Assembly (NCBI GenBank): GCA_963169645.1
Contig: CAUJCO010000008.1
Location: forward strand, 62,001-126,000
Direction of reading: 5' to 3'
DNA from: Bacteroidota bacterium
Lineage (GTDB): Bacteria; Bacteroidota; Bacteroidia; Chitinophagales; JADIYW01
DNA length: 64,000 nucleotides
Shown here: one piece after another, positions 52,525 through 59,093 of the stretch
Layout: each line of letters starts with the position of its first letter
Numbering within the stretch: position 1 is the first letter of the stretch
Notes under the pieces: model-generated
Seen by the model: only the letters and a program-made list of their open reading frames with translations
What the model was told of the DNA's origin: nothing
The model's database searches: none
Made by a program: the position numbers and the translations under genes

Positions 52525-53766
52525 TTATTTCTTTTTCTTCTTTTTTAGTTTTTGTTCCAATGCTTCTGCTTCTTTTAAAAGCGATTGTAAATCTTCTTTC
52601 AGTATTGTGTCATTTGCAAATTCAACGGTTTCTAAATAATCTTCTTTTTCAATGTCAATAACATGAATCGGTTTTGTTAAAAATGTTTCTATCGTTTTTA
52701 AAGTTGGTTTTTCTTCTGTACTACAAAATGAAATAGCTTGTCCTTTTTGGTCACCACGTCCGGTTCTGCCTACGCGGTGTACATAATTTTCTGCCACATC
52801 CGGTAAATCATAATTCACTACAAAATCTACATTTGGAATGTCGATACCACGCGCATTGATGTCGGTGGCAATTAATACTTTTGTTTTCCCTTTTTTAAAT
52901 GCTTCTAAAACCTGCAAACGTTCTTTATGTTCTTTGTCGCTGTGCATGGTAAGTGTTTTGATTTCTGCACGACTCATGGCATTGGCAACTCGCTCTGCAC
53001 GTACTTTGGTCCGCACAAAAACTAATACTTTTTTATCAGCATGTTCTTTCAATATTCGTTCTAAAAAAAAGCGTTTGTCATCCATTTCTATAAATGCAAC
53101 GGCATGTTGCACATTTTTAGAAACCGGATCTTTAGGTGAAATTTGAATGCGAATGGCATTGTTCACTAATGAATATGCCAACTTCTTGATATGCTCATTA
53201 ATTGTTGCTGAGAAAAACAAAGTTTGTCTGTTTTTAGGCAAAAATCGTTGCATATCTCGGATGTCTTTGATGAAACCAAGGTCGAGCATGTGGTCGGCTT
53301 CATCGAGTACTAAAATTTCTATTTTGCTTAAATCTAAAGCACCTTGATGTTGCAAATCAAACATGCGGCCTGGTGTTGCAATTACGATATCGATTCCTTT
53401 ATAAAGCGATTTTATTTGAGCATCTTGTTCCACACCACCAAAAATACAAAGTGTTTTTACGCGTGTTTTTTCAGCTATTTTTTCAAAAACTTCGTTTACT
53501 TGCAGTGCCAATTCATGAGTAGGTACCATCACAATGCATTTGATAAAGTCGGTGCGTTTGGAACTTTTGTCGGAATGTATTTTATGAATAATCGGAATTG
53601 CGAAAGCAGCAGTTTTTCCGGTACCTGTTTGTGCAATTGCCAATACGTCTTCGCCTCGTAAAATAGCCGGTATAGATTTGTATTGGATGTCTGTAGGTTT
53701 TTTAAAACCCAGTTGTTCCAAGTTGAATTTTATATCTTCATTGATGCGATAATCGGAAAACTTCAT
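52525..53766 (-). CDS. DEAD-box RNA helicase, RhlE-like
   Basis: 413 residues. Q motif (LGFKKPTDIQYKSIPAILRG), Walker A AQTGTGKTAAF, PTHELALQV, VLDEADHMLDLGF (DEAD), SAT in FFSATINEHIK, and in the second domain ATDINARGIDIPNVDFV and HRVGRTGRGDQKG. The C-terminus is a short lysine-rich tail. Likely roles are ribosome assembly or mRNA turnover. It is divergent from the restriction cassette and separated from it by ~180 bp. Confidence 0.95.
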   Translation of the reverse strand: MKFSDYRINEDIKFNLEQLGFKKPTDIQYKSIPAILRGEDVLAIAQTGTGKTAAFAIPIIHKIHSDKSSKRTDFIKCIVMVPTHELALQVNEVFEKIAEKTRVKTLCIFGGVEQDAQIKSLYKGIDIVIATPGRMFDLQHQGALDLSKIEILVLDEADHMLDLGFIKDIRDMQRFLPKNRQTLFFSATINEHIKKLAYSLVNNAIRIQISPKDPVSKNVQHAVAFIEMDDKRFFLERILKEHADKKVLVFVRTKVRAERVANAMSRAEIKTLTMHSDKEHKERLQVLEAFKKGKTKVLIATDINARGIDIPNVDFVVNYDLPDVAENYVHRVGRTGRGDQKGQAISFCSTEEKPTLKTIETFLTKPIHVIDIEKEDYLETVEFANDTILKEDLQSLLKEAEALEQKLKKKKKK

Positions 53767-53912
53767 ACCACAAAGATAGATAAACCTACGGGTAATTAGA
53801 AATGTAGAAATTAATGTAGAATTTTTGATTATTCCAGTTTATTAATTATATAATATTATTTATATTTATAATAATCAATTTTAAAATCGCATTCTAACCA
53901 AATTTTTTATTG

Positions 53913-53920
53913 TAAATTTG
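53913..53920 (+). promoter_or_regulatory. -7 promoter box of the restriction cassette
   Basis: TAAATTTG, exact TAnnTTTG, 25 bases before ATG 53946. The only box seen for the four-gene cassette. Confidence 0.5.
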
Positions 53921-53945
53921 AAACATCTAATTGATAATAGTCGAT

Positions 53946-54872
53946 ATGAATATTGATAAAAATGCAAAACCATTTTTAAAGTGGGCAGGTGGTAAAACAC
54001 AGCTCCTTAACAACATTGAAATGGCTTTGCCAAAAGATATTTTAAAGGGAAAATTCACTTACATTGAGCCATTTGTTGGAAGCGGTGCAGTTCTATTTTG
54101 GATGTTGAATAATTTCCCAAACATGGATAAAGCTATAGTTAATGATGTTAATGAAGATCTCATCAATACCTACAAAACGATAGCTGAAAAACCTAAAGAA
54201 CTGATTTCGATACTTCAAATCTTACAAAACGAGTTTCACGGACTTGAAGGACAAGACGATGCAAAAAAAGAATATTACTACTCTAAAAGAGAGCTTTATA
54301 ACAAAAGAAATAAAGAACAAAGCGTACAAGCTGCCTTATTTATTTTTCTCAATCGAACTTGTTTCAACGGACTTTACCGCGTAAACCGTAAGAACGAATT
54401 TAATGTTCCAATGGGTAGTTACAAACGACCAACCATTTGCGATAAGGAAAATATTTTGGCAGTTAGTCAAGCGTTGCAAAATGTGGCAATACTTTGTGGT
54501 GATTATGAAGAAACACTGAGTTATGCAGATAATAACACCTTATTTTATTTCGACCCACCCTACAAACCATTGAGCGAAACATCAAGTTTCAATTCGTATG
54601 CAAAAGACGAGTTTAATGATGAAGAACAAATAAGATTAAGAGATTTTTGCTACAAATTGGACACTTTGGGGCACTCTTGGATTTTAAGTAATTCAGATGT
54701 AAAGGGAAAGAATGAAAACGACAATTTCTTTGATGATTTATATGCTGACTTTAACATACAAAGAATAAATGCGAGACGTAATATCAATGCCAATCCAGAA
54801 AAAAGGGGCGTATTGAAAGAGTTATTAATTACAAACCATGTATCAAGTCAAGAATATGTCAGAGCAATTTAA
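53946..54872 (+). CDS. dpnM: Dam/DpnM-type adenine-N6 DNA methyltransferase (D12 class)
   Basis: 308 residues from ATG 53946. Motif order is alpha-type: FLKWAGGKTQLL and YIEPFVGSGAVLFWM (SAM-binding), then FYFDPPYKPLS (catalytic DPPY) at ~205. Between them, NRTCFNGLYRVNRKNEFNVPMGSYKRP is the segment shared by Dam and DpnM. It would methylate adenine in GATC to protect host DNA; the target is inferred from family and from the DpnII-type nuclease next door. It overlaps the nuclease gene by 17 bp. Confidence 0.9.
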   Translation: MNIDKNAKPFLKWAGGKTQLLNNIEMALPKDILKGKFTYIEPFVGSGAVLFWMLNNFPNMDKAIVNDVNEDLINTYKTIAEKPKELISILQILQNEFHGLEGQDDAKKEYYYSKRELYNKRNKEQSVQAALFIFLNRTCFNGLYRVNRKNEFNVPMGSYKRPTICDKENILAVSQALQNVAILCGDYEETLSYADNNTLFYFDPPYKPLSETSSFNSYAKDEFNDEEQIRLRDFCYKLDTLGHSWILSNSDVKGKNENDNFFDDLYADFNIQRINARRNINANPEKRGVLKELLITNHVSSQEYVRAI

Positions 54873-55695
54873 AATCTTCTTATCGCAATTATCAGAAACA
54901 AATGCTACTCTTGACTATTTCACCGACTTCAAGAAAATTAAAGGCAACGTAAACAAAATTGCAATAAAGCTAAATCAACTCAATTATTTAATTGGCAAAA
55001 CAGACATAAAAGTAGCAGTAAACGAACTTTACGAAGAAAATCCAAAAGTGTTTGAAGTATTAGATATGCTTGTAGCAATTCGTAAAAACAAAAATGCTAA
55101 GACCTTTAATAACAAAGGTAAAATAGTTATGCTTGATTCTTATTTCACCTCACCTGAAAACATTTGCGAATACATAGAAGAAACAGGCTTAGGTGAAATT
55201 TTTAGGAACAAAGACGTTAAAAATTTAGTGGATTATGTATTTGGGATTGAAGTTGGTTTAGACACTAACGCAAGAAAAAACAGAGGTGGCGAAAATATGT
55301 CAAAAGCTGTTTCTCTTTTTTTTGACAAATCCAACGTTTTTTACAAAAAAGAAGTTAATAATACAGCATTTCCAGAAATACTGAGTTTAGGTGCTGACGT
55401 GAAACGGTTTGATTTTGTTATTAAAACAAAAAGGAAAACGTATTTAATTGAAACTAATTTTTATAACGGTGGTGGTTCTAAATTAAATGAAACCGCAAGA
55501 TCTTATTCCGATGTTGCACCAAAAATAAATAAATATCCAAACTATGAATTTGTTTGGATTACAGACGGTCAAGGTTGGCTTTCAGCAAAGAACAAATTAG
55601 AAGAAGCATACAGCATTATTCCAAGCATGTATAACCTCTCAACACTTAATCTGTTTATCAAAAAAATACTGAACGAGAAAGTTATCACATTCTAA
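54856..55695 (+). CDS. dpnB: DpnII-family type II restriction endonuclease
   Basis: 279 residues from ATG 54856 (MSEQFKIFLSQL), preferred to ATG 54838 because relatives begin a few residues before this block; it then overlaps the methyltransferase gene by 17 bp. VKRFDFVIKTKRKTYLIETNFY is the PD-(D/E)xK core with D and E-T-N in place, followed by GGGSKLNETARSY, the hallmark of DpnII/MboI-type enzymes. VLDMLVAIRKN and SYFTSPENICEYIEETGL are further family segments. It should cleave unmethylated GATC. Confidence 0.88.
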   Translation: MSEQFKIFLSQLSETNATLDYFTDFKKIKGNVNKIAIKLNQLNYLIGKTDIKVAVNELYEENPKVFEVLDMLVAIRKNKNAKTFNNKGKIVMLDSYFTSPENICEYIEETGLGEIFRNKDVKNLVDYVFGIEVGLDTNARKNRGGENMSKAVSLFFDKSNVFYKKEVNNTAFPEILSLGADVKRFDFVIKTKRKTYLIETNFYNGGGSKLNETARSYSDVAPKINKYPNYEFVWITDGQGWLSAKNKLEEAYSIIPSMYNLSTLNLFIKKILNEKVITF

Positions 55696-55704
55696 AACTC
55701 ACTT

Positions 55705-57369
55705 ATGGAAGTAGAAGCATTTAGCCAGAAAATATCTAATGTATTAAGTAAAGGCAAATTTATTATACCTGATTATCAAAGAGAATATGATTGGGATGAG
55801 AGTGAAATAAATGAACTTTTAGAGGATCTCGAAGATGTAAAACCAGATGAAAGTTACTTTATTGGACACATGGTTTTTGAAGGTAAGTTCACAGGAAATG
55901 AGTTTAAAGTAATTGATGGACAACAGAGAATTACAACGCTTACAATAATGCTAAGTGTAATTAGAGATTTGTTTTACACAAAACAATTAAATAATTTAGG
56001 AGATGGGATAAATGATAAATACATTTTTGCAAAAGATGTAGATAATAACCCGTTCGTCATTCTTGAAAATAAAATGCCTTATCCTATTCTACAATCTTAT
56101 GTTCAAAGTGTTCCTGATAAAAAGGACTTGACAGCCCAACCTATTAAAAGCGGGGAGAAAAAAATCATAAAAGCATATGATCACTTTAACGCATTGTTTA
56201 AAAATAAATCAGAACAAGAGCTTAAAGATTTAAGAGATAGGATATTAAATTTAGAGGTCATATTTGTTGCTGCTAGCGATAAAGTTGATGCACATTCAAT
56301 TTTTATGACACTTAACGCAACAGGTAAAGATCTTACTCCAATTGATTTAATAAAGAATCAAATTTTTAGTTTATACCCAAAGCAACCACATATCGATGAA
56401 CCAAATGATACTTGGAATAAAATCATTGACAACATAGACGAGAAAGGTGTTAAATTTTTTAATAACTATTGGTCTTCTCGATACAAAAAGATATCCGACT
56501 CAAGATTATTTAAGGAATTTTATAAAAACATTATTAAAGCAAAGGTTCCTGTTAAAGATTTCTTGAAACAAATATTAAAGGACTCTGAAGTATATCGTAA
56601 AATTACAAATCCAAGCGAAGATGATTGGTCAGGACAAAACGAATATCAAATTTATCTTTCAATAAATGCAATAACAAATGTGTTTGGTATTGAAGTATCA
56701 AATGCAATGTTAATTTCATTAATTAGAGAGTACGAAAACAGAGGTGTTTCACTAGCTTATTTAGTTAAGGCATTAAATACCATTGAGAAGTTTCACTTTA
56801 CAAATAATGCAATTTGCTCAAACAGATCATCTGGCTTGGATCAATTCTACTCCAAATATTCTCGAGAACTTTTAAATGAAGTAGACAAAAATAGCAAGCA
56901 TATTGTTATTGATTCCTTTATCAAAAGTTTAGAAGAAAAACTTCCCAAAAAAGAACAATTTGAAGTAAACTTTGATTCCAAACTATACTTTTCATCTAAA
57001 TCTACAAAGCAAAGAAAATTAGTTTACTATGTTTTAAATAAAATTGAGTTCAAAAAGCAAAATGGTAATATGACGTTACATAATATGAGTATTGAACATA
57101 TTTATCCAGAAGCTCCAAAATCGAATGTGTGGAAGCCTTTGGATGAAAAGCATATTATTAACATTGGCAACTTAGTGTTGCTTGACGCAGGATTAAATTC
57201 AAAAATTGGCAATATTGATTACCAAAAGAAGAAAGAAATAATTCTCAAAGAATCTAATTTAATTTCAACTAAAGAAGTGCTTAATAACAATATTGACTGG
57301 TCTGAAAAAGAGATAGCTGAAAGAAGGAAAGATTTAGTAGAATATTGTTTTGAAGATATTTGGAAATAA
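55705..57369 (+). CDS. DUF262-DUF1524 protein (GmrSD/SspE-like) inside the DpnII-type operon
   Basis: 554 residues. DUF262 (~1-235): FIIPDYQREYDWDESEINEL, SYFIGHMVFEG and the nucleotidase motif KVIDGQQRITTLTIML, then FMTLNATGKDLTPIDLIKN. DUF1524 (~440-554): SIEHIYPEAPKSN is the HNH His-x-x-Pro motif, with NIGNLVLLDAGLNSKIGN. This is the domain pair of GmrSD, which cuts DNA with modified bases, and of SspE, which senses phosphorothioate DNA. It begins 9 bp after the nuclease stop and ends against the next start. Such a gene is not part of the classic DpnII operon (dpnM-dpnA-dpnB); the pairing suggests targeting of phage DNA that escapes the nuclease. That role is inference. Confidence 0.85.
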   Translation: MEVEAFSQKISNVLSKGKFIIPDYQREYDWDESEINELLEDLEDVKPDESYFIGHMVFEGKFTGNEFKVIDGQQRITTLTIMLSVIRDLFYTKQLNNLGDGINDKYIFAKDVDNNPFVILENKMPYPILQSYVQSVPDKKDLTAQPIKSGEKKIIKAYDHFNALFKNKSEQELKDLRDRILNLEVIFVAASDKVDAHSIFMTLNATGKDLTPIDLIKNQIFSLYPKQPHIDEPNDTWNKIIDNIDEKGVKFFNNYWSSRYKKISDSRLFKEFYKNIIKAKVPVKDFLKQILKDSEVYRKITNPSEDDWSGQNEYQIYLSINAITNVFGIEVSNAMLISLIREYENRGVSLAYLVKALNTIEKFHFTNNAICSNRSSGLDQFYSKYSRELLNEVDKNSKHIVIDSFIKSLEEKLPKKEQFEVNFDSKLYFSSKSTKQRKLVYYVLNKIEFKKQNGNMTLHNMSIEHIYPEAPKSNVWKPLDEKHIINIGNLVLLDAGLNSKIGNIDYQKKKEIILKESNLISTKEVLNNNIDWSEKEIAERRKDLVEYCFEDIWK

Positions 57370-58248
57370 ATGCTTAAACCATATTTCAAATCCTCGGACA
57401 AAAACTTCTATCTTCTTCACGGAGATACAATGGAGCTTTTGCCTCAATTTGGGCACAAGTTTGATATGGTGTTTGCAGATCCTCCCTATTTTCTTTCTAA
57501 CAACGGTTTGTCAATTCAAAGCGGAAAAATCGTAAGTGTCAACAAAGGAAAATGGGATAAGTCCGAAGGATTTCAGTTTATTAACGATTTCAATAGAAAA
57601 TGGCTTTCGTTGGTTCGTGATAAAATGAAAGATAATGGTACGATTTGGATAAGTGGTACCATGCATAATATTTTTTCTGTAGGACAAATCTTGACGGAAT
57701 TAGGCTTTAAAATTTTAAACATCATCACTTGGGAAAAGACTAATCCACCACCCAATTTTTCGTGTCGTTATTTCACTTATTCAACAGAACAGATTATATG
57801 GGCAAGAAAATGTGAAAAAGTTCCTCATTACTTCAATTATGAACTGATGAAGCAACTCAATGGAGATAAACAAATGAAAGATGTTTGGAAATTTCCTGCA
57901 ATCGCTCCTTGGGAAAAATCATGTGGTAAACACCCAACACAAAAACCACTTTCCGTATTAACAAGACTTATTTTGGCTTCAACAAAACCTAATGCTTGGA
58001 TTTTAGACCCATTTACAGGTAGCTCAACAACAGGAATTGCTGCTAATTTGGCTAACAGACGGTTTCTTGGAATTGATCAAGAAGAAAATTTTTTAGCATT
58101 AAGTAAGAATAGGAAAATTGAAATAGAAAACACTAGAATAGCTGAAAATTATAGACAAATGATTTGTGGTTTCAAAGATAAATCTGAGCTTGAATTATTC
58201 TTAGTAAATGAACCAACTATTGAATATACGACAGAAATCAATTTTTAA
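57370..58248 (+). CDS. dpnA: Second adenine methyltransferase of the cassette (DpnA-like)
   Basis: 292 residues. Beta-class motif order: FADPPYFLS (DPPY) at ~38, then C-terminal ILDPFTGSSTTGIAA (SAM-binding FxGxG) at ~215. The middle holds KWLSLVRDKMKDNGTIWISGT, WEKTNPPPNFSCRYFTYSTEQIIWA and HPTQKPL, as in DpnA, the enzyme that can methylate single-stranded DNA. It abuts the DUF262 gene stop with no gap, so it is co-translated. Together with DpnM it gives host protection. Confidence 0.9.
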   Translation: MLKPYFKSSDKNFYLLHGDTMELLPQFGHKFDMVFADPPYFLSNNGLSIQSGKIVSVNKGKWDKSEGFQFINDFNRKWLSLVRDKMKDNGTIWISGTMHNIFSVGQILTELGFKILNIITWEKTNPPPNFSCRYFTYSTEQIIWARKCEKVPHYFNYELMKQLNGDKQMKDVWKFPAIAPWEKSCGKHPTQKPLSVLTRLILASTKPNAWILDPFTGSSTTGIAANLANRRFLGIDQEENFLALSKNRKIEIENTRIAENYRQMICGFKDKSELELFLVNEPTIEYTTEINF

Positions 58249-58269
58249 ATACACACACAACTAATTTAT

Positions 58270-58321
58270 ATAGGATATTTATTAATTGAAATTAGTAAGT
58301 TAATATAGTATCCTATTTTTA
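58270..58321 (+). terminator. Likely terminator of the restriction cassette
   Basis: ATAGGATA (58270-58277) pairs with TATCCTAT (58309-58316), followed by T5; inside, TTATTAATT (58279-58287) pairs with AATTAGTAA (58290-58298). AT-rich, so moderate strength. Confidence 0.5.
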
Positions 58322-58337
58322 TAAATTCGTGTTATAC

Positions 58338-59093
58338 CTAATCCTTAGATGCCATTTTTCCATCAAATTTTTCTACTAATTCTTTGGCTTTTGGTTGATA
58401 ATAATTAGGAGATTCAGCGAGTGCATGCAATAATGGAATAGCTGCTGTTACATTTTTATTTTTGATGTATGCCAATGCTAAATACCACTGGATATCTTGT
58501 TGGTATTCGGTAGCCTGTTGTATGCCGGATAACACCACAATAGCTTTTTCTGTTTGGTTGCTACTTAGATAGGAAATACCCAAAAAAAGCCTATTTTTTA
58601 TATTTTCCGGATTGTTGTTTACTAGTTTCTGATAAAGGTTAGCTGCTTCAAAATAATCTTCTTTTTCGTATAGTGCTATTGCATCTTTTTCACTGTGCTT
58701 GTTGTCCTCACCTCGTACCGTACCGTCAGGGTGGGTGAGTGGCTGGTAGTAAGCTGCAAAAAGTTGATCTGTGTTAGGTGTGTTTCCTTGTAAAATAAAA
58801 TGCCAGCTAACCGTTACAATTAATCCAATAAAACATGCGGCAAACGCCCAAAGTAAAAATGGATTTATTTTTTTAATGGATGCTTTTTTTGTTGTCGTTT
58901 TTTGGTTGATGGAAGTAAATAAGTCGTGTTGTACTTGTTGCAATTGTGAAATGGTATGCGTTGCTGCAAATTGTTGCAATCCTTCCACACTTTCCATTAA
59001 GAACGGATCGTTTTCCATTTCCAATTCGAAAGCATATCGTTCTTCCGGTGACAGCTCGTTGTGTACATATTTCAATACTAAATCATCCTTCAT
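58338..59093 (-). CDS. Anti-sigma-like membrane protein with periplasmic TPR domain
   Basis: 251 residues. The N-terminal ~50 residues (LVLKYVHNELSPEERYAFELEME) resemble the cytosolic anti-sigma region (the usual zinc ligands are missing). One membrane helix (~80-102; FLLWAFAACFIGLIVTVSWHF) follows. The C-terminal ~120 residues outside the membrane form TPR repeats (DAIALYEKEDYFEAANLYQKL, IKNRLFLGISYLSSNQTEKA). Its start overlaps the sigma gene stop by 11 bp. It probably holds the sigma factor and releases it on an envelope signal; the TPR part would be the sensor. Confidence 0.72.
   Translation of the reverse strand: MKDDLVLKYVHNELSPEERYAFELEMENDPFLMESVEGLQQFAATHTISQLQQVQHDLFTSINQKTTTKKASIKKINPFLLWAFAACFIGLIVTVSWHFILQGNTPNTDQLFAAYYQPLTHPDGTVRGEDNKHSEKDAIALYEKEDYFEAANLYQKLVNNNPENIKNRLFLGISYLSSNQTEKAIVVLSGIQQATEYQQDIQWYLALAYIKNKNVTAAIPLLHALAESPNYYQPKAKELVEKFDGKMASKD

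Follow-up and report, generated by a model that had tools for sequence, protein, structure and literature searches.

We found that a gene for a 554-aa protein with a DUF262 and a DUF1524 domain, hereafter G, is embedded in a DpnII-type restriction-modification operon of a Bacteroidota bacterium, and that all six close copies of G that we know of, this one included, lie inside operons whose enzymes are predicted to act on GATC. This points to a second line of defence, built into the operon, against viruses that get past the first one. G occupies a slot whose content changes between sister operons, and its closest solved relatives are DndI and SspE, nucleases that read marks on host DNA.

A compact operon of predicted GATC specificity inserted between two neighbouring genes

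The window, the whole stretch of 64,000 nucleotides that we analysed, carries four tightly packed plus-strand genes at 53946-58248, as the original prediction had claimed; all four are intact, and Pfam confirmed their domains with scores well over the cut-offs. The first (53946..54872) encodes a 308-aa D12-class, DpnM-type Dam adenine-N6 methyltransferase with predicted GATC specificity (PF02086, 229.5 bits; TIGR00571, 304 bits). It is followed by a DpnII-family restriction endonuclease (54856..55695; PF04556, 320.5 bits) whose start we placed by homology: the first ATG of the frame lies at 54838, but alignments with relatives begin at the ATG at 54856, which probably makes the true overlap with the D12 methyltransferase 17 bp. 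G comes third (55705..57369; PF03235, 127 bits; PF07510, 67.6 bits) and is a predicted NTPase-HNH nuclease of the GmrSD/SspE/DndI superfamily. The last gene (57370..58248) encodes a 292-aa DpnA-like or CcrM-like beta-class adenine methyltransferase, MTase2 (PF01555, 195.5 bits). With the nuclease starting at 54856, the first two genes overlap by 17 bp; G begins 9 bp past the nuclease stop, and MTase2, with a gap of 0 bp, at the base directly after the stop of G. This close spacing suggests that the four genes are co-transcribed. Terminator-like sites were not seen on the plus strand within the operon, and promoter-like matches there are at chance level.

The restriction-modification part has the hallmarks of a Type II system of the DpnII (GATC) type, namely a PF04556 nuclease with its catalytic positions conserved, a D12 Dam and a DpnA-like second methyltransferase. 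The DPPY motif is intact in both methyltransferases, and the nuclease keeps the conserved D, E, N and K positions in an alignment with 11-12 relatives. Among solved structures, the first methyltransferase is closest to DpnM (2DPM, E=5e-54), and MTase2 has CcrM (6PBD) and DpnA (5HEK) among its best relatives; by homology to these enzymes, those of the operon probably recognise and methylate GATC.

GATC is depleted in the operon's own genome, at 0.31-0.35 of expected over the ~104 kb counted. Members of the genus that lack the DpnII gene are depleted equally (0.15-0.56 of expected, with the exception of G785 at 1.34), so the depletion is no proof that the operon is active, and we dropped it as such; a value of 0.77 from a small pooled sample of genus loci, which had pointed to a depletion specific to this genome, was superseded by this larger genus sample. 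Like GATC, CTAG and GGCC are strongly depleted, both in this genome and in most members of the genus (window and loci L155-L166), those without DpnII included.

Compared with other members of its genus, the operon is cleanly inserted. It is flanked by a helicase gene (52525-53766) and an anti-sigma/TPR gene (58338-59093), both on the minus strand, which in the genus members G788 and G786 are direct neighbours, ~50 and ~90 bp apart with nothing between; a segment of exactly the four operon genes (53767..58337) is therefore present here and absent there. The DpnII gene was found in none of seven genus members. The host genome encodes a single PF03235, a single PF02086 and a single PF04556 protein. 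G is under purifying selection, with dN/dS of 0.12-0.13 (0.04-0.08 for the other genes); this value for G, together with recurrence in five other genomes, indicates that the association of G with the operon is more than chance.

All known close copies of G lie within predicted GATC operons

When 84,980 species genomes were scanned once with patterns taken from the G sequence only, five relatives of 49-86% identity turned up, in Bacteroidota and Campylobacterota. They come from a contig labelled Patescibacteria (L018, 86%), whose genes are 77-86% identical to those of the window, and from Capnocytophaga sputigena (L019, 73%), Paludibacteraceae (L020, 52%), Prevotella (L021, 49%) and Nitratiruptor, of the Campylobacterota (L022, 57%). 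Mis-binning or a recent transfer could account for the Patescibacteria label beside a Bacteroidota-like operon. Among culturable bacteria, Capnocytophaga sputigena NCTC11653 carries the operon. All five lie within an operon of a D12 Dam, a restriction nuclease and a second methyltransferase, making six of six with the window. The linkage of a DUF262-DUF1524 gene to Dam, nuclease and second methyltransferase thus recurs in distant genomes, and neither of the doubts attached to the original prediction, that the order might be unique to this genome or G a chance insertion, was borne out. Because the linkage recurs, with every known copy in a GATC operon, the proposed two-layer system in one transcript is well founded as anatomy, its single transcript being suggested by the spacing.

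The partners of G are not all constant. The Prevotella operon lacks DpnII and has in its place a MutH-fold protein whose nearest match is Sau3AI (4PXG, E=1e-19), a GATC enzyme too; a 443-aa protein without Pfam or PADLOC match lies between this nuclease and G (L021:6626-7957). In Nitratiruptor the order is Dam-G-DpnII-MTase2, and MTase2 is from another lineage. The DpnM-type Dam is the only same-family partner in all six operons.

No close copy of G without methyltransferases was found in the 84,980-genome scan, and 310 genomes from the order of G002 held no further close copies. Around homologues at or below ~34% identity (plasmid loci L024-L028; genome loci L074-L076, L079 and L080), we saw no restriction-modification genes in the readable surroundings, some of these contigs being short. 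We rejected a phage origin of G, since viral relatives reach only ~20-40% identity and none is close, and likewise spread by plasmids, as no plasmid match exceeds ~34% across the full length. Five of the six associations stem from one operon lineage, so the number of independent events is about two.

G occupies a swappable cargo slot

Between the window and Capnocytophaga, identities are 71% for Dam, 75% for DpnII, 80% for MTase2 and 73% for G, indicating co-divergence within the Bacteroidota operons. The Nitratiruptor operon differs: its G is 57-59% identical to those of the window group, but its Dam only 44-47%, its DpnII 42-45% and its MTase2 29-34%. G being far closer than its neighbours, it must have moved alone, again into a GATC operon, of a different DpnII lineage. 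This lone transfer is a single event, yet no other sign of coupling is as strong. On a tree of both methyltransferases, the presence of G takes four changes, at least three of them forced by well-supported branches. Between the window and L018, dS is lower for G (0.61) than for its neighbours in the operon (~1.7), which hints that the cargo was exchanged recently, although dS is near saturation and G is AT-richer.

Sister operons hold other genes, or none, at the place of G, which identifies it as a swappable cargo slot; the original prediction had missed this. Between nuclease and MTase2, the slot is empty in L073, L098 and L099, and holds an 88-aa ORF in L077, a 184-aa ORF in L168 (the operon nearest to the window's, in the same family), a DndB/DpdB-like protein (PF14072) in L097 and an OLD/AAA_15 protein in L100 (genome G507). 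Two operons carry longer cargo that begins alike: L102 has DUF6997, a homologue of the 88-aa ORF, a membrane ORF and a DndB-like gene, and L020 has DUF6997, the 88-aa homologue and G, so that two slot genes are in common and the last differs. Other positions are taken by a 383-aa protein in L103 and, in L078, by a 123-aa ORF that contains the motif DGQHR; a related slot holds an Mrr_cat nuclease (L083 and L092, from Fusobacterium and a phage contig).

Several further genes were seen in or beside these operons. The small slot proteins at L020:7659-7931, L077:6290-6556 and L102:3365-3637 form a family of 88-90 aa (RHKCA.CAYE.GY) that matches no Pfam family above cut-off. In G507 the DpnII match runs across two TAA codons (L100:4818-5525); the nuclease looks broken, and both methyltransferases and the OLD-like cargo are retained. 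On a Staphylococcus cohnii plasmid an AIPR/AbiU-like gene lies directly 3' of the DpnII operon (L081:4964-6664). A small ORF (GGGA.TN.NGL.FE...EKKFQ..AGSVDEK) recurs beside DpnII operons at L101:3907-4392, L104:1611-2132, L109:2530-3066 and L113:5937-6464, with a weak PD-(D/E)XK match in L101. On viral contigs with Dam, DpnA and DpnII, ORFs with motifs that by eye look like MutH/Sau3AI (NKGKTGQLLE...FEDGELKTNKCD) adjoin the operon (L105:2579-3250, L116:5903-6547 and, on the minus strand, L119:1673-2323); these are possibly paired GATC nucleases.

The closest solved relatives of G read host marks

G carries the motifs of the GmrSD family, DUF262 with DGQQR (residues 71-75) and DUF1524 with the EH..P motif of His-Me nucleases (EHIYP, residues 464-468), and matches Pfam GmrSD_N and GmrSD_C. 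The motifs are intact in all six proteins of the subfamily. A profile built from the six scored 86 bits against DndI (9JFL), 40-47 bits against SspE and 10.7 bits (E=1.1) against BrxU. A structural model of G (20-sequence alignment, pLDDT 84, pTM 0.64) ranked its relatives in the same order (DndI, E=7e-15; SspE, 5e-12; BrxU, 8e-4), as did an earlier, weaker model (pLDDT 69); full-length TM-scores were below 0.5, probably due to the two domains packing differently, so the fold result is a ranking of the solved structures compared, which did not include GmrSD, and not a superposition. The closest solved relatives of G are thus DndI and SspE, which read host marks; the match to BrxU, a type IV enzyme, is far poorer.

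G shares domain architecture and predicted fold with these two proteins, as well as linkage to a host DNA-modification module, in the form of methyltransferases in six of six operons. Its operon has m6A methyltransferases only, and no dnd or ssp phosphorothioate genes; we therefore do not file G as SspE or DndI. DndI and SspE use a hydrophobic patch to sense sulphur. Their mark-sensing tyrosine (Y25 in DndI, Y30 in SspE) has an equivalent, Y24 (YQR), in five of the six G proteins, with F in L019; YQR is widespread among DUF262 proteins generally, and we set this residue aside as not discriminating. The best PADLOC family for G is HEC-06 (full length, 272 bits); stand-alone homologues score similarly, which makes G a relative of HEC-06 and not clearly a member.

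A candidate second layer coupled to GATC methylation

We consider it likely that G is a second-layer nuclease of one kind or another, whether coupled to host methylation or of type IV. Our leading reading, tentative and held at somewhat less than even confidence, is functional coupling to GATC methylation in the manner of DndI and SspE. The operon would be a mobile GATC restriction-modification unit in which Dam and the DpnA-like enzyme methylate host GATC and DpnII cuts unmethylated GATC. G, borne in the slot, would be an NTP-hydrolysing HNH nuclease forming a second layer against incoming DNA that escapes DpnII. It would engage DNA broadly and take host G6mATC as self, either by hydrolysing NTP and then releasing the DNA or by a licensing step, and would nick or cut DNA without G6mATC; G could thereby stop phages that evade DpnII in the simplest way, by losing their GATC sites.

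Coupling is favoured by the strict linkage, by a Dam that stays constant while nuclease and MTase2 change, by the lack of orphan copies among those found, by the nearest relatives and by the purifying selection on G. DndI is nuclease-active and toxic in the absence of host phosphorothioate (PMC11662687), and SspE is licensed by the host phosphorothioate mark (PMC9646914). These solved relatives, with BrxU not among the close ones, and the strict tie to GATC methylation lead us to lean towards a G that reads or depends on the host mark. Several points count against coupling: we know of no DUF262 protein that reads m6A, the independent associations number about two, and the cargo of sister slots is unrelated, which is what one expects of a slot open to any defence gene. 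In addition, TgvAB (PMC11411939) and BrxU (PMC8565348), GmrSD-like proteins that have been assayed while embedded in loci based on methylation, act on modified cytosine. The boldest form of the proposal seems rather unlikely to us: G would be the first DUF262-DUF1524 nuclease to read ordinary base methylation, G6mATC, as a self mark, giving two layers from one mark, in which DpnII cuts unmethylated GATC and G attacks DNA wholly lacking the mark, closing the site-loss escape, with the slot swapping G for other ParB-fold proteins (DndB-like).

Just behind coupling we place the possibility that G is an independent modification-dependent (Type IV) nuclease against phage hypermodified cytosines that block DpnII, needing no host methylation and sharing the operon for co-expression and co-transfer; this would be the TgvAB/BrxU arrangement in a Type II operon. 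TgvAB in Type I restriction-modification loci and BrxU in BREX hit modified cytosine and complement the host system. The GmrSD_N, GmrSD_C and HEC-06 matches fit this reading, HEC-06 being reported to work independently though embedded in Hma loci (PMC11411939), as do the varied slot cargo and the Mrr_cat nuclease in the related slot of Fusobacterium and the phage contig. Type IV activity alone, however, leaves unexplained why every close copy found sits in a GATC operon with no orphans and why G crossed into another DpnII lineage, and BrxU is the weakest of its solved relatives. If, instead, defence genes merely land in the slot and travel with the operon, G would be a passenger without functional coupling and perhaps of little present benefit. 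The varying and sometimes empty slot, the three to four changes of G presence on the operon tree and the insertion of a whole operon not common to genus members are what one would then expect; the low dN/dS of G, its motifs intact in all six proteins, its co-divergence with the methyltransferases in the Bacteroidota lineage and the repeated association make this improbable. Least probable is that G is a guard like PrrC, kept inactive by the restriction-modification enzymes and freed once DpnII or the methyltransferases are inhibited by an anti-restriction protein of a phage: PrrC-type guards do occur in Type I operons (PMC3710099) and an OLD-like ATPase holds the same slot in G507, but the nuclease partner is not conserved (Sau3AI-like in Prevotella), leaving Dam as the sole common partner, and the DUF262-DUF1524 proteins studied to date sense DNA.

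An embedded GmrSD-like nuclease thus recurs in the simplest and best known kind of restriction-modification system, the Type II GATC operon, and the slot that holds it changes cargo from one bacterium to another. Two questions become testable in this operon: can a DUF262 nuclease treat m6A as the mark of self, and do Type II operons act as mobile carriers of second-layer effectors against phages escaping through site loss or base modification?

Comparison with known systems

GmrSD-like genes embedded in Type I restriction-modification, BREX and Hma loci are already known; of one in a Type II GATC operon we found no description in the literature searched (subscription papers thinly covered, REBASE outside the search). 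Homologues of GmrSD are enriched close to Type I restriction-modification genes (Machnicka et al. 2015, PMC4619093), and restriction-modification operons with embedded HEPN and Abi genes have been described (PMC3710099). Embedded cases that have been tested or proposed include TgvAB (PMC11411939), BrxU (PMC8565348) and HEC-05/06.

The window operon has the same three enzymes as DpnII, LlaDCHI and MboI-type systems (dpnM-dpnA-dpnB), a D12 Dam, a beta-class methyltransferase and a PF04556 nuclease, but differs from the DpnII type in its order, Dam-nuclease-[slot]-MTase2, and in its fourth gene. The Bacillota plasmid operons we inspected are compact, either Dam-MTase2-nuclease or Dam-nuclease without MTase2, and have no embedded gene. 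Like TgvAB, the window operon has DUF262/DUF1524 coding capacity inside a restriction-modification operon as a putative second restriction layer; TgvAB, however, consists of two proteins in a Type I operon, whereas here one predicted protein lies in a Type II GATC operon, and we do not assign it to TgvAB. HEC-06, an Hma-embedded candidate of PADLOC and the best family there for G, is also embedded, but in Hma loci. BrxU, of the GmrSD family, is likewise a single-chain DUF262-DUF1524 protein within another defence locus, BREX, but is very distant from G in both profile and fold. SspE of SspABCD-SspE (PMC9646914, PMC13251355) is a DUF262-DUF1524 nuclease gated by a host DNA mark; it differs in being larger (771-818 aa), in its phosphorothioate mark and in its ~14% identity to G in the fold alignment. 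DndI of IscS-DndBCDE-DndI (9JFL, PMC11662687) is the nearest solved relative in sequence and predicted fold and is likewise linked to a host DNA-modification module; the host mark in its case, phosphorothioate at GAAC/GTTC, differs from m6A at GATC, and it is ~20% identical to G.
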